Positions 2,214 through 61,215 of a DNA stretch of 64,000 nucleotides are shown here, one piece after another. Every line of letters starts with the position of its first letter. Position 1 is the stretch's first letter. Under the pieces are notes generated by a model. It saw only the letters and a program-made list of their open reading frames with translations. It searched no databases and had not been told where the DNA came from. The position numbers were made by a program, and so were the translations under genes. The stretch comes from Sphingobacteriales bacterium (GTDB taxonomy: Bacteria > Bacteroidota > Bacteroidia > Sphingobacteriales > Sphingobacteriaceae): NCBI GenBank assembly GCA_004293485.1, contig RDYW01000036.1, forward strand, positions 1 through 64,000, written 5' to 3'.

Positions 2214-2355
2214 TTGTTGTTGTTTTTGTGCTTCAAATTTAGGTTTTTTAAGGATAGTTTTTGGGAATGATGAGGATATAATTTACGTACAACCTAAGTT
2301 TAATTATTGTATTGTAATACAATTTGCTATTAATGAGTATTTTATTTGTTTAAGA

Positions 2356-2512
2356 GCGTTAACGATGGCAATGGCATCCTTTTTCTTTATAGCCCCCCTA
2401 CTGGGATTGTGGCAAATGGGGGGCTATAAAGAAAAAGATACTTGCCTGCTGGCAAGCAGGTAATGTACAGCGTGTTACCTTGCCTACCGGCAGGCAGGAA
2501 ACGCCCTAATCA
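2356..2512. repeat. Dispersed structured repeat, copy A (20-bp hairpin core plus two CCTGC-type mini-palindromes)
   Basis: Shares 44 identical nt (2469-2512) with 12272-12315 and aaaaagatacttgcctgctggcaa with copy B; core stem 2379-2398 / 2418-2437. Confidence 0.85.
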
Positions 2513-2580
2513 TGATAATAAATGAATATTTATATATTGTAACGGAGGTGTATTTGTTTTGGCATTTTAAAAATGCTGTG

Positions 2581-3798
2581 TTATATTTCATGGTTTTGAT
2601 ACAAAAAATTATTAAAAGGATATATTTTTTGGTTTACAATTTTTACTTCTTCGTAAATACGGTTGCGTAAATCTTCGGCGTTTTGTTTGTTTAGTGCCGA
2701 TATAAAAATGGCTGGGCTATTGTGTTTTGCCATCCAAGTATTTTTAAAATCGCTAAGCGGTAATGTGGCTTCGGTTTCATTATCTACCTCCCAATCTTCG
2801 AGTATTAGGGTGGGTTTATAGGCATCAATTTTATTAAAAACGGTAATCATGGTTTTATCAATTGCGCCCATTTCTTTTAGGGTTTCGTTTACTACGGCAA
2901 TTTGATCTTCAAAATTTTGGTGCGATATATCTACCACGTGTAACAAAATATCGGCTTCACGCACTTCATCCAAAGTTGATTTAAAACTTTCGATTAAGTT
3001 GTGTGGTAGCTTTCGTATAAAACCCACCGTATCGGATAGTAAAAAAGGTACGTTTTCGAAAACTACTTTGCGCACCGTGGTATCAAGCGTGGCAAACAAT
3101 TTATTTTCGGCAAATACTTCGGATTTAGAAAGCATATTCATAATGGTTGATTTACCCACATTGGTATATCCTACCAAAGAAACCCGAACCAAATCTTTAC
3201 GGTTTTTGCGCTGTGTTTCGTTTTGGCGGTCTATTAGTTTTAGTTTTTCTTTCAATAAAACTATTTTATCTTTTATAATACGCCTATCGGTTTCTATTTG
3301 GCTTTCGCCTGGGCCACGCATACCTATACCGCCTTTTTGTCTTTCGAGGTGGGTCCACATCCGCGTTAAGCGAGGCAACATATATTGCAGTTGTGCTAGC
3401 TCCACCTGTGTTTTCGCTTGCGCACTTTGTGCTCGGCCAGCAAAAATATCTAAAATTAAGTTGCTACGGTCTATTACTTTTACTTTTAATTCGGCTTCGA
3501 TATTACGGAGTTGCATGGGCGATAGTTCGTCGTCAAACACCACTAAATCAATTTCTTCGGCTTTTACAAAGGTTTGTATTTCTTCTAATTTACCTGTGCC
3601 TACAAACGTTGCCCGCTCGGGTTTTTGCATGCGTTGGGTAAAGTAACGTTCGGTAATGCCGCCAGCGGTGCTAACCAAAAATGCCAGCTCGTCTAAAAAT
3701 TCTTTTTGTTGCGCATCGCTGGTGCCGGGCAATATTATGCCTACTAAAATTGCCCGTTCGGATTTTAGTTCGGTTTCGTAAAATTTAACTTTTGTCAT
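2581..3798 (-). CDS. hflX: GTPase HflX
   Basis: RxGPGESQIETDRR motif; G1 GYTNVGKST; DTVGFIRKLPHNLIESFKSTL. Confidence 0.96.
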   Translation of the reverse strand: MTKVKFYETELKSERAILVGIILPGTSDAQQKEFLDELAFLVSTAGGITERYFTQRMQKPERATFVGTGKLEEIQTFVKAEEIDLVVFDDELSPMQLRNIEAELKVKVIDRSNLILDIFAGRAQSAQAKTQVELAQLQYMLPRLTRMWTHLERQKGGIGMRGPGESQIETDRRIIKDKIVLLKEKLKLIDRQNETQRKNRKDLVRVSLVGYTNVGKSTIMNMLSKSEVFAENKLFATLDTTVRKVVFENVPFLLSDTVGFIRKLPHNLIESFKSTLDEVREADILLHVVDISHQNFEDQIAVVNETLKEMGAIDKTMITVFNKIDAYKPTLILEDWEVDNETEATLPLSDFKNTWMAKHNSPAIFISALNKQNAEDLRNRIYEEVKIVNQKIYPFNNFLYQNHEI

Positions 3799-12163: not shown

Positions 12164-12315
12164 GCGTTAACGATTGCAGCGGCGTCCTTTTTTTTGCCAA
12201 AACTCCCCTTGGGGGTTGGGGGCTTAAAAACAAAAAAAAGATACTTGCCTGCTGGCAAACAGGTAGCGGAAAGCGTGTTACCTTGCCTACCGGCAGGCAG
12301 GAAACGCCCTAATCA
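12164..12315. repeat. Dispersed structured repeat, copy B
   Basis: Flanks shared with 2356-2512; core stem ctttttttttg-type arms 12187-12196 / 12231-12240 unrelated in sequence to copy A core. Confidence 0.85.
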
Positions 12316-12426: not shown

Positions 12427-14013
12427 CTACACATCTATCCCAAAAATTACTTCTGCCAAGCCTATTTCATCGGGCGAAGCTGGCAGTAAGTAAGGTACAT
12501 TCATTTCATCAAATTTATTGCCTGTGGCTTTTCCAATGGCTACAATTTTTTGGCCTGGTTGTAAAAGGTTTTCGGTAAAATATGCATCTACATTTGATGG
12601 GCTTGTAAACACGAGTACGTTGGCGTAAGTGGGTGCAATATTATCTTCTAAAATGGTTTCGTAAACGGCAAGGTCGAGTATTTGGGTATCGGCAGATAAC
12701 GCTTTTTGTATGGTGCGTAACGATTGTTCGGCCGATGGAAATAAAATATGTTGGCCATTGGCTATGGCGGCAAAATCTTGTGCTATATCGGCGGTATCGT
12801 TGCTTTGCCCAACAAAATCAACCTTTTTACCTAGTTGTTTTAAGGCTTCTTCGCTGCCACGGCCTATTACACCAAACTTTATTTCTTTAGGTAAGATGGG
12901 GGCTAAAGCAAAAAAATATTCGATGCCGTTTTTACTGTTAAAAAATACCCAATCGAGGTTTCTAAAAATGTACGAATCTAATTTATTTATAGTGGCAACG
13001 GTGCGTATTAATGATTTTGCCTCTAGTTGTATGTTATTTTTGGCTAACGATTTAGCAAAATAACTGTGCTGGTTAATCTCGCGTGATATAAAAACTTTTT
13101 TGGGAAACCTTCGGCTAGCAATATCAAATTTGGCCACAATTTTTTCGGCCAAGCCTTCGGTAGTTTTTGCTTTAAGGTATAACCTATCCGGAAACTGGTG
13201 GGCTTCATCGGCTTTGCTTGTCCATACTTCAAATATATTTTCGTTTTTTTGGCAATAACAGCCTAGTGGGGCATGGCATCCACCATCTAAAAGGTTAAGT
13301 ACTTTACGTTCTACGGCAATAACTTCGGCCACAGCCACATTGTTTAATGGCTGCAAAAGGTCAAAAAGTTGTTTATTGTTTTCTTTAATTTGTATGGCCA
13401 GTACGCCTTGTGCGGGCGAAGGCACCATTTCGGCATTGGGTTCTATAATTTCTTGGTGAAACTCCGATAAGTCGATGCCTAGCCTTGCTACACCAGCTCT
13501 TGCTATTACGATGGCATCGTAATTTTCGTCGCGTAGTTTTTGTATGCGTGTAGGTACATTGCCACGTAGGTTTTCTATTTCAATATCGGGCCTTATTGAT
13601 AGCAGTTGCGCCTGTCGGCGGTTTGATGATGTGCCTACTACGCCATTGTGTTTTATGGATAGTTTTTTGGATGTATCTACACAATCTTTTAATATCAATA
13701 TCAATTCTGAAGCATCTTCACGCTGGCTTACAGCGGCTATAATTAAACCTTCGGGGTTTTGGGTGGGTAAATCTTTGTGCGAGTGTACGGCCAAATCAAT
13801 TTCGCCGGTTAATAATTGTTCTTCAAGTTCTTGGGTAAAAAAGCCTTTTCCTTCCAGTTTATCAAGCCTAAGGTTTAATATGCTATCGCCTTGTGTTTTA
13901 ATAATTTTTAGTTCGGCTTTAACATTAATTTCGGCCAATTTATCTTTAACATAATTGGCTTGCCATAATGCCAAATCGCTACCGCGGGTGCCTATAATTA
14001 TTTTTTTATCCAC
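12427..14013 (-). CDS. hemCD: Fused hydroxymethylbilane synthase / uroporphyrinogen-III synthase
   Basis: HemC: IIIGTRGSDLALWQA and cofactor-Cys loop LLDGGCHAPLGCY; C-terminal ~220 aa (KKVFISREINQHSYFAK... VLVFTSPSNVDAYF) is HemD-like. Confidence 0.9.
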   Translation of the reverse strand: MDKKIIIGTRGSDLALWQANYVKDKLAEINVKAELKIIKTQGDSILNLRLDKLEGKGFFTQELEEQLLTGEIDLAVHSHKDLPTQNPEGLIIAAVSQREDASELILILKDCVDTSKKLSIKHNGVVGTSSNRRQAQLLSIRPDIEIENLRGNVPTRIQKLRDENYDAIVIARAGVARLGIDLSEFHQEIIEPNAEMVPSPAQGVLAIQIKENNKQLFDLLQPLNNVAVAEVIAVERKVLNLLDGGCHAPLGCYCQKNENIFEVWTSKADEAHQFPDRLYLKAKTTEGLAEKIVAKFDIASRRFPKKVFISREINQHSYFAKSLAKNNIQLEAKSLIRTVATINKLDSYIFRNLDWVFFNSKNGIEYFFALAPILPKEIKFGVIGRGSEEALKQLGKKVDFVGQSNDTADIAQDFAAIANGQHILFPSAEQSLRTIQKALSADTQILDLAVYETILEDNIAPTYANVLVFTSPSNVDAYFTENLLQPGQKIVAIGKATGNKFDEMNVPYLLPASPDEIGLAEVIFGIDV

Positions 14014-14097
14014 ATTAATGGTGTTTTAGGGTGTTTGCAATGGGGCAAAATTGCGACTTATATTGTAAAAACAAAAATGGTAAATGGCAAAGTGTAA

Positions 14098-15327
14098 TCA
14101 ATCGTTATTTACCAAAATCTCTTTAGCCATTAGCATGGGGATGCTGATATATTTTTTTTCTACATAGGTCATAACTTTTTCTAGTACCAATCGTGAGTTA
14201 TCGTCCATGGTGTGTATATCGTTGGCAAATACTGTATGTAATGCCTTATTTTTTATTTCTTTAATTTTTACAGGCACCTCTTTCATGGCTATTTCGATAC
14301 GGCGTTGTTTTAAAACGGGTCTAAATTCTTTAAGATTTTTTTCGATAATACTTTCGCCGTTAATTAATTCTTGAAAACGTTCTTGCTTATTTTTTTCGGC
14401 AATATCTTGCAGGTCGGATACTTCAATAAAATTAACTTTGTTTTGTAAAAGTACTTCGGGGGCAGTATCGTTAGGAAGTGCTAAATCAACAATTACTTTT
14501 TGGTTAGTTTCGTTATTTAGTAAAGCGGTGTATATTTCGGGCGTTAAAATAGGCTCGGTAGCCGCGGTGCAGGTAATTATTACATCAAAACCCAATCCAA
14601 AAGTTTTAAGGCTTTCTAAATTGTAGGCATTGCCGCCAAGTTGGTTGGCAAGGTGTTGTGCTTTGCTTAAAGTACGGTTAAAAACCGAAAAGTTGCTGTA
14701 TTTATGTTTTTTAAGGTATTGGGCAATGTTTATATTGGTTTCGCCGGCACCAATAATTAATATGCGGCTGTTTGCTGGCATTTTTAAATCGCGTAGTTTT
14801 CGGTAAGCCAACGATACTACCGAAATGGGATTTTTAGCAATATTGGTGTAAGTATATACTTCTTTTGCTGTTTTTACTACCCGCTCCATTATTAGCCTAA
14901 GATAGTCGCCAGTTAGTTTTTTAACTCGGCAAGCCTCGTAGGCTTTACGCACTTGCGACAAAATTTCTTTTTCGCCCACTACTAAGCTTTCGAGCGAACT
15001 TGCTACACGCATTAAATAATTTAAAGCGGCTTCGTTTTGGTAAACACAACAATCGGCCACCATGATATCTAATTGCAATTTACTTAATGTATCGTTGTGT
15101 AAACTGTTTAAAAAACACTTTACAAACTTTTTATCTAGCTCTTGCTCGGCGGTAAACACAAATTCTACCCGGTTACATGTAGCCAAATAAAATAATTCAG
15201 AAATATCGTATTTATGCTTTATGAAACCTAACTTTTGGTCTAAGGTGGCTTCGTTCAAAACAAGGCATCCCAGCTGTTTTAAATCAATTTGCTTGTGCGT
15301 AAAAGCTATAACCTTCAAAAACTTCAA
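14098..15327 (-). CDS. hemA: Glutamyl-tRNA reductase
   Basis: YLATCNRVEFVF, SSLESLVVGEKEILSQVRKAYE, ILIIGAGETNINIAQYL. Confidence 0.95.
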   Translation of the reverse strand: MKFLKVIAFTHKQIDLKQLGCLVLNEATLDQKLGFIKHKYDISELFYLATCNRVEFVFTAEQELDKKFVKCFLNSLHNDTLSKLQLDIMVADCCVYQNEAALNYLMRVASSLESLVVGEKEILSQVRKAYEACRVKKLTGDYLRLIMERVVKTAKEVYTYTNIAKNPISVVSLAYRKLRDLKMPANSRILIIGAGETNINIAQYLKKHKYSNFSVFNRTLSKAQHLANQLGGNAYNLESLKTFGLGFDVIITCTAATEPILTPEIYTALLNNETNQKVIVDLALPNDTAPEVLLQNKVNFIEVSDLQDIAEKNKQERFQELINGESIIEKNLKEFRPVLKQRRIEIAMKEVPVKIKEIKNKALHTVFANDIHTMDDNSRLVLEKVMTYVEKKYISIPMLMAKEILVNND

Positions 15328-60840: not shown

Positions 60841-60935
60841 GGGCGTGTCCCCTCCAAAAAGGGGGCGGGCTTTTCGTTGCAATAATTTTGCCCCAAAAGG
60901 CAAAATTGATTTCCACTGCAATCCCTCACGCAAAA
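60841..60935. repeat. Palindromic dispersed-repeat-like element with internal hairpin (aattttgcc/ggcaaaatt)
   Basis: Ends gcgtgtccc ... ccctcacgc; internal exact 9-bp stem 60884-60892 / 60899-60907; cccct/aggggg hairpin near the 5' end. Confidence 0.65.
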
Positions 60936-61215
60936 TTTACTTTGGATATTATTTACAAATTAATTAAAAGGGTTAAATGCCTAACTAAGCTAGTTTCATT
61001 TTTTTTTAACGTAGAAACCTAACATCTTAATTATTATTCTCTACTTTAAAAAAATAGCCTTTGTTTGTTCCGCAGTTTTCGGCTAACTATTTATTTTTAT
61101 GCACACTTGGGCATTGCTTTGGTTTTACCAACGTTAGCTAAACGATAAAAACAATCACAAATTAACACCACCCAAAAAACAAAGCGCAAGCACTAAACCT
61201 ACCAACTACTATGCA

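Follow-up and report, generated by a model that had tools for sequence, protein, structure and literature searches.

Copies A and B, two dispersed repeats in a 64,000-nt stretch of DNA (contig RDYW01000036.1, positions 1 to 64,000; hereafter the window), are members of the Flavo-1 RNA family lodged in a ~250-bp MITE-like repeated unit, and the two palindromes of copy A are units that were gained or exactly lost at this locus. We consider it highly probable that Flavo-1 membership, a fold maintained by compensatory changes, palindromes coming and going at loop sites and replacement of the core hairpin all belong to one and the same picture, from which the identity of the carrier of the palindromes is excluded. 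The frame belongs to a family already described, and the palindrome modules in its loops appear to be the new part. A first-pass annotation of this DNA, which had proposed a structured RNA with modular hairpins, was largely right, except that part of the supposed conserved frame consists of inserted modules.

Copies A and B in the window

The genome bearing the window (G000, 2.21 Mb) was compared with that of its closest relative, a sister species (G016), and with an outgroup (G006); loci are designated by L numbers. The host genome is that of a Pedobacter-like member of the Sphingobacteriaceae. Copy A lies between two genes: the product of one (816-2213) matches fumarase C, and that of the other (2581-3798) matches a GTPase carrying GTP-bdg_N/M domains, which we read as HflX. 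This GTPase shares 79% identity with that of Pedobacter glucosidilyticus, and the nearest named relatives are Pedobacter and its allies. The gene beside copy B (12427-14013) encodes HemC and HemD domains. The features of the repeats are as follows.

2291..2543, forward strand: entire ~253-bp unit to which copy A belongs, its ends weakly TIR-like (CCTnAGTTTnATnATT...); copies at other loci match exactly 2291-2543
2356..2506, forward strand: copy A Flavo-1-type frame, GCGTTAACGATnGnAnnGGCATC ... GATA TAnnGnAnAGCGTGTTA AAACGCCC, with the core hairpin and two inserted palindromes; identified by the RF01705 score of the G016 ortholog, L273
2379..2437, forward strand: core hairpin of copy A, with a perfect stem of 20 bp; the G016 ortholog has the identical hairpin
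2441..2460, forward strand: copy A site II palindrome CTTGCCTGCTGGCAAGCAGG, 20 nt, exactly absent in the G016 ortholog, no slide ambiguity
2478..2498, forward strand: copy A site III palindrome CCTTGCCTACCGGCAGGCAGG, 21 nt, exactly absent in the G016 ortholog
12164..12309, forward strand: copy B, same frame as copy A with a different core; RF01705 score of 20.7 bits, below cut-off, with the palindromes in place
12187..12240, forward strand: core hairpin of copy B, in which an A/T-tract stem encloses CTCCCCTTGGGGGTTGGGGG; L011 and L014 have this core type too
12244..12263, forward strand: copy B site II palindrome CTTGCCTGCTGGCAAACAGG
12281..12301, forward strand: copy B site III palindrome, identical to that of copy A
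60859..60936, reverse strand: a Flavo-1 of the classic type (GCGTGAGGGATTGCAGTGGAAATC ... GATTATTGCAACG...), the third member of the family in the window; RF01705 score of 44.6 bits, above the gathering score

Direct reading of the sequence bore out the annotated anatomy: gcgttaacgat and aaaaagatacttgcctgctggcaa are common to both copies, the 44-nt block is identical (2469-2512 and 12272-12315), copy A has its perfect 20-bp stem (2379-2398 / 2418-2437), the cttttttttg/caaaaaaaag stem of copy B (12187-12196 / 12231-12240) encloses a C/G inner part, and each copy contains two 22-nt palindromic sub-units. The repeat is dispersed as claimed, with 29 blastn matches to copy A in its own genome. The flanks described as conserved do contain shared blocks, but the 44-nt block and the ttgcctgctggcaa block are mostly made up of inserted palindromes (2441-2460 and 2478-2498 in copy A, 12244-12263 and 12281-12301 in copy B), and the conserved frame surrounds them. 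The cores do differ between the two copies, but because A and B are different loci, this difference alone is no proof of exchange. Folding of copy A is far beyond chance (z = -7.5, none of 200 dinucleotide shuffles as good), and that of copy B moderately so (z = -3.0 versus dinucleotide shuffles).

The frame is a Flavo-1 RNA

Side-by-side comparison of the copies revealed a common frame, GCGTTAACGATnGnAGCGGCATCCTTTTT - variable core - AAAAAGATATAGCGnAnAGCGTGTTAAAACGCCC. When queried with copy A alone, Rfam returned sub-threshold matches only, and the identity of the frame came from its palindrome-free ortholog. At the copy A locus of G016 (L273), frame and core are the same letter for letter, TAATGTACAGCGTGTTA comes immediately after GATA and precedes AAACGCCC, and the element scores 50.5 bits against the Flavo-1 model RF01705 (gathering cut-off, 42 bits). 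The palindromes are therefore not part of the frame. Palindrome-free orthologs of copy A, L009, L010 and L058 all score above the cut-off (50.5-54.6 bits), thereby upholding the proposal of a structured RNA. With their palindromes, copies A and B reach 14.2 and 20.7 bits, respectively, since the inserts break the match to the model.

The same search detected one Flavo-1 in the window (60859-60936, reverse strand) and 26 matches in the whole of G000, 19 of them above cut-off, and none in 14 control genomes. We built our own covariance model from ten palindrome-free G000 copies with trimmed cores, which gave 31 matches in G000 and from 1 to at least 108 per genome in 17 congeneric genomes; 111 candidates were scored per congeneric genome, so that the highest copy numbers are lower bounds.

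To our knowledge, no function has been assigned to Flavo-1 since its description in 2010. The family was described by Weinberg et al. (2010, PMC2864571), and PMC9723704 reports Flavo-1 as lacking a clear function, with transcriptome matches sense, antisense and outside of transcripts. The present copies resemble it in their frame, their alternating helices and symmetric loops, their Bacteroidota host and their many dispersed copies; they differ from it in their inserted palindromes, very variable long cores, outer GCGTT/AACGC helix and ~250-bp unit. The portion of the literature searched contained no report of palindromes residing or moving in Flavo-1, and the published passages on Flavo-1 that we consulted make no mention of mobile modules.

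Compensatory changes maintain the fold of the frame

The forward strand is predicted to fold into a long irregular hairpin, with an outer GCGTT/AACGC helix, further helices parted by internal loops, and the core hairpin at the apex. Among 99 distinct frames, most of them from this clade, 98.1% of the aligned cells were paired and 14 of the 20 pairs had changed on both sides; as the structure of the model guided this alignment, the counts lean toward the model. None of 500 shuffles reached the observed pairing values, and sliding the partners by 1-3 columns left 40-68% paired (maximum 67.8%). A MAFFT alignment of the ten-copy palindrome-free seed gave the same picture (99.5% paired, five double-changed pairs). 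Compensatory changes in the frame helices of both alignments support the claim of selection on structure made in the first-pass annotation.

In the lower helices, 15 G.U pairs stand against 2 A.C mismatches (p = 0.002 on the assumption of independent copies, which related copies violate), and 33 against 3 overall, an excess that favours a forward strand acting as RNA. The cores fold well, with a median z of -5.8 versus mononucleotide shuffles. In the MFE fold of a palindrome-free ortholog, the core is visible and the lower helices are absent, so that the latter rest on covariation and not on energy. The elements have no orientation preference relative to neighbouring genes, which, like the mixed transcriptome positions in PMC9723704, tempers the case for expression; a role as terminator or 3'-UTR was not adopted for the same lack of preference.

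Palindromes are exactly present or absent at orthologous loci

Compared with G016, copy A contains 20 additional nucleotides at GATA^TA (site II) and 21 at GTGTTA^AAACG (site III). Neither insert is accompanied by a target-site duplication, as there is zero slide ambiguity. The same filled state in G000 and empty state in G016 was found at L009 (II, III), L010 (II, III), L058, L062 and L063 (I), whose G016 orthologs are L255, L269, L265, L208 and L343, respectively. The reverse direction was observed at L050/L326 (site III), and site II is filled in both species at L012/L349. Seven cases were re-checked letter by letter, five of which have zero slide ambiguity. The exact inserts (CTTGCCTGCTGGCAAGCAGG, CCTTGCCTACCGGCAGGCAGG, CCTGCCTGCGCAGGCAGG and similar) belong to one sequence family (CCTGCCTGC..GCAGGCAGG) with lengths of 18-21 nt. 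The palindromes that had been taken for part of the conserved flanks are thus inserts in their own right, which the sister species lacks at its A locus.

Sites II and III are separated by 17 nt that remain locus-specific (TAATGTACAGCG, TAGTGGAAAGCG, TAGTGTAAAGCG), which argues that the two inserts did not arise by conversion of the whole 3' arm. At L009, sites II and III are also empty in the outgroup, making gain in G000 the simpler polarity; this is the only locus at which the outgroup polarises gain versus exact loss. At site III of copy A, G006 carries a different palindrome of ~18 nt, such that the site is filled in G000 and G006 and empty in G016. A longer palindrome form, CCTGCCTGCC-ATGCCTyTyGGCAGGTAAA-CCGGCAGGCAGG, occurs at L016 (site III), L059 (II) and L018 (III variant), and could be either a nested insertion or the form from which the short ones derive.

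Nearly all of the ~54 palindromes parsed in frames lie at site I (GCGG^CATCC), site II (GATA^TAG) or site III (GTGTTA^AAACG), a single case (L340) occupying a fourth position, GATG^GCAG. Each of the four lies in a loop or junction of the predicted fold. Since p = 0.08 for this placement, we do not advance loop-only insertion as a statistical claim, and the four positions are in themselves no more than suggestive of palindromes entering predicted loops. By reading, only 2 of the ~24 palindrome places in G000 lie outside a frame. In four fusions (L020, L331, L337 and L345), a site I palindrome is joined directly to site II or III sequence and the core is lost.

The palindrome was also seen in other contexts. 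In G014 (L228, L237, L244, L249 and L254) and G008 (L229 and L238), it sits inside a different dispersed repeat at a constant position in each copy seen, and it also occurs in unrelated repeats of G013. In G015 (L236) and G017 (L231), both at ~1501-1519, it lies in partial tRNA-like copies near tRNA-Arg genes, in G015 within an apparent T-loop (GGGTTC^GACTCCC).

Cores are replaced within a conserved frame

Orthologous loci supplied the evidence for hairpins interchangeable in a fixed frame that copies A and B could not. L021 and its G016 ortholog L324 share 97% identity over the flanks as well as rare frame letters, and their cores are unrelated. Likewise, L028 and L262 of G006 have flanks ~90% identical and unrelated cores, and L025/L186 of G006 is probably a further core exchange. 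The exchanged cores are self-complementary, with frame and flanks kept at two or three orthologous loci. The core stem of L009 shows a compensatory change (ATTGCC/GGCAAT versus AAATAGCC/GGCTATTT at L258 of G006). Another hairpin module, CCCTTCCTTTGTCAGGGTAAACTCC, fills the region between sites II and III in some G016 and G006 copies.

Possible mobility of the whole element

The homology of segments in G016 (C48:16710-16961) and G006 (C187:3353-3615) to the window spans exactly 2291-2543, a unit of about 253 bp with weak CCTnAGTT-type inverted ends recognised by eye. The suggestion of a non-autonomous mobile element is partly supported by this homology elsewhere and by the huge variation in copy number between species, but comparison of orthologous loci in G006 and G016 yielded neither a clean empty site nor a target-site duplication for the element as a whole. 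That it moves as a whole we infer from its dispersal and its number of copies. Copy B was unusable as a whole-element empty site, as its flanking genes are rearranged in G016.

Between genes orthologous to 12427-14013 and 14098-15327 of the window, a complete Flavo-1-type element is found in both G006 and G016. The corresponding interval of G000 (14013-14097) is without the element, and its flanks do not align cleanly with those of G006 and G016. A pair of adjacent, inverted Flavo-1 elements at L275 of G016 (C99) corresponds to a single one in G000 (L016).

Y1 transposases and an IS-like end

Y1 transposases were found in all 19 genomes searched (~88 matches). We scanned 30 of these loci and found no palindrome within 1.5 kb of any of them, which speaks against the link to a REP-associated transposase that had been suggested for checking. 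The only intact Y1 gene found in G000 (L286; C22, ~1220-2030) is flanked by ACATAGCCCACGGTTTAAACCGTGGGCTATGT repeats, with which it likely forms a RAYT/REP pair of its own. A RAYT association of the palindromes was rejected on the 30 loci scanned and on this other repeat flanking the genome's own Y1 gene. Furthermore, none of the exact inserts examined has a GTAG or CGTC tag at its ends.

An IS-like end (TAATGGCACTAACATAGrATAATTTATTTATATTT) was found at 15 contig ends of G000 and G016, including L065-L071 in G000 and L377-L384 in G016. By eye, every case is within or next to a hairpin rich in C and G, and at least 7 of them are inside a Flavo-1 core; the core of L062/L208 is uninterrupted by it in G016. 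Landing in C/G-rich hairpins, often Flavo-1 cores, recalls the REP-targeting IS of the IS621/IS110 group (PMC11208160), from which the present element differs in being known from its end alone, with all copies at contig ends.

Discussion

We propose that the palindromes would be mobile units mostly gaining positions in the loops of the frame, as outgroup polarity supports at both sites of one locus, and that they may survive there because an added hairpin leaves the frame fold intact. Our leading, if tentative, candidate for the carrier is a process that leaves no scar and works on single-stranded DNA able to form hairpins, with either a HUH/Y1-type endonuclease provided in trans or template switching between copies. 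It is rather doubtful that the 18-21-nt palindrome is itself the transposition unit, entering the single-stranded loops of structured RNA genes and repeats exactly and without duplication, with Flavo-1 as the landing frame and an enzyme or an RNA-level process as the driver.

Other explanations bear on how these alleles arose. Palindromes and cores could spread without any transposition, through gene conversion or homologous recombination in which the frames of dispersed copies serve as homology arms. Near-identical frames in dozens of copies would allow it, the core-less fusions L020, L337, L331 and L345 resemble recombination or slippage between palindromes, and core exchange with conserved arms is what it predicts, making it a real rival especially for the cores. 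However, locus-specific letters are kept between sites II and III and on the far side of the core, so that conversion tracts would need to be shorter than ~17 nt on each side, and as a general account we regard conversion as possible without favouring it. Movement of the palindromes as REPs by a RAYT (TnpA-REP), with the Flavo-1 frame as a preferred single-stranded target, would fit small palindromes gained without scars in many copies and the presence of Y1 transposases in every genome searched. We find it unlikely given the scanned Y1 loci devoid of palindromes, the different repeat around the genome's own Y1 gene, the lack of terminal GTAG or CGTC tags and flanking letters that vary by site (GCGG^C, GATA^T, GTTA^A).

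The empty loci could also be losses, the palindromes being ancestral and decaying by exact deletion, as might be suspected from the recurrence of CTTGCCTGCTGGCAAGCAGG at site II in many copies and from the filled site III of copy A in both G000 and G006. Yet it is the palindrome-free copies that score above the Flavo-1 cut-off, deletion between direct repeats would leave an ambiguity that five of the seven re-checked cases lack, palindromes at one site vary between copies (18, 20 and 21 nt), L009 is empty in both G016 and G006, and the same palindrome occurs in unrelated repeats of G014, G013 and G008; decay by exact deletion is accordingly quite improbable. Finally, the genomes are fragmented short-read drafts (89-220 contigs) in which repeats break contigs, and hairpins might have been dropped or spliced during assembly. 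Such an artefact is very hard to reconcile with the palindromes that G016 keeps at other loci, with differences in both directions, with the agreement of a third genome at L009 and with locus-unique letters running through the region; near-closed genomes (G014 in one contig, G008 in ~20 contigs) contain the palindrome as well, albeit within different repeats.

The palindromes proposed here as mobile units resemble REPs, GTAG- or CGTC-tagged palindromes and REPINs (PMC3733652, PMC3116915) in their 20-nt scale, their dispersal, their gain without obvious scars and their location within larger mosaics. No GTAG family is listed in Bacteroidetes by PMC3733652. The present palindromes differ from REPs and REPINs in lacking a GTAG or CGTC tag and, at the scanned loci, a flanking transposase, and in residing almost only inside another structured repeat. 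Rickettsia palindromic elements are palindromic units tolerated inside functional sequences because the fold is preserved, and the tolerance proposed here may be analogous. Those elements have a greater length and occur chiefly in protein-coding genes, as far as is known, whereas the present units are 18-21 nt long and lie in RNA-like repeats.

Inserted palindromes explain why such elements score below Rfam cut-offs. A multicopy Flavo-1 RNA with a compensated fold and transient loop hairpins tells fixed letters from replaceable ones, and the matched filled and empty alleles of sister species lend themselves readily to tests of the movement of very short bacterial palindromes.
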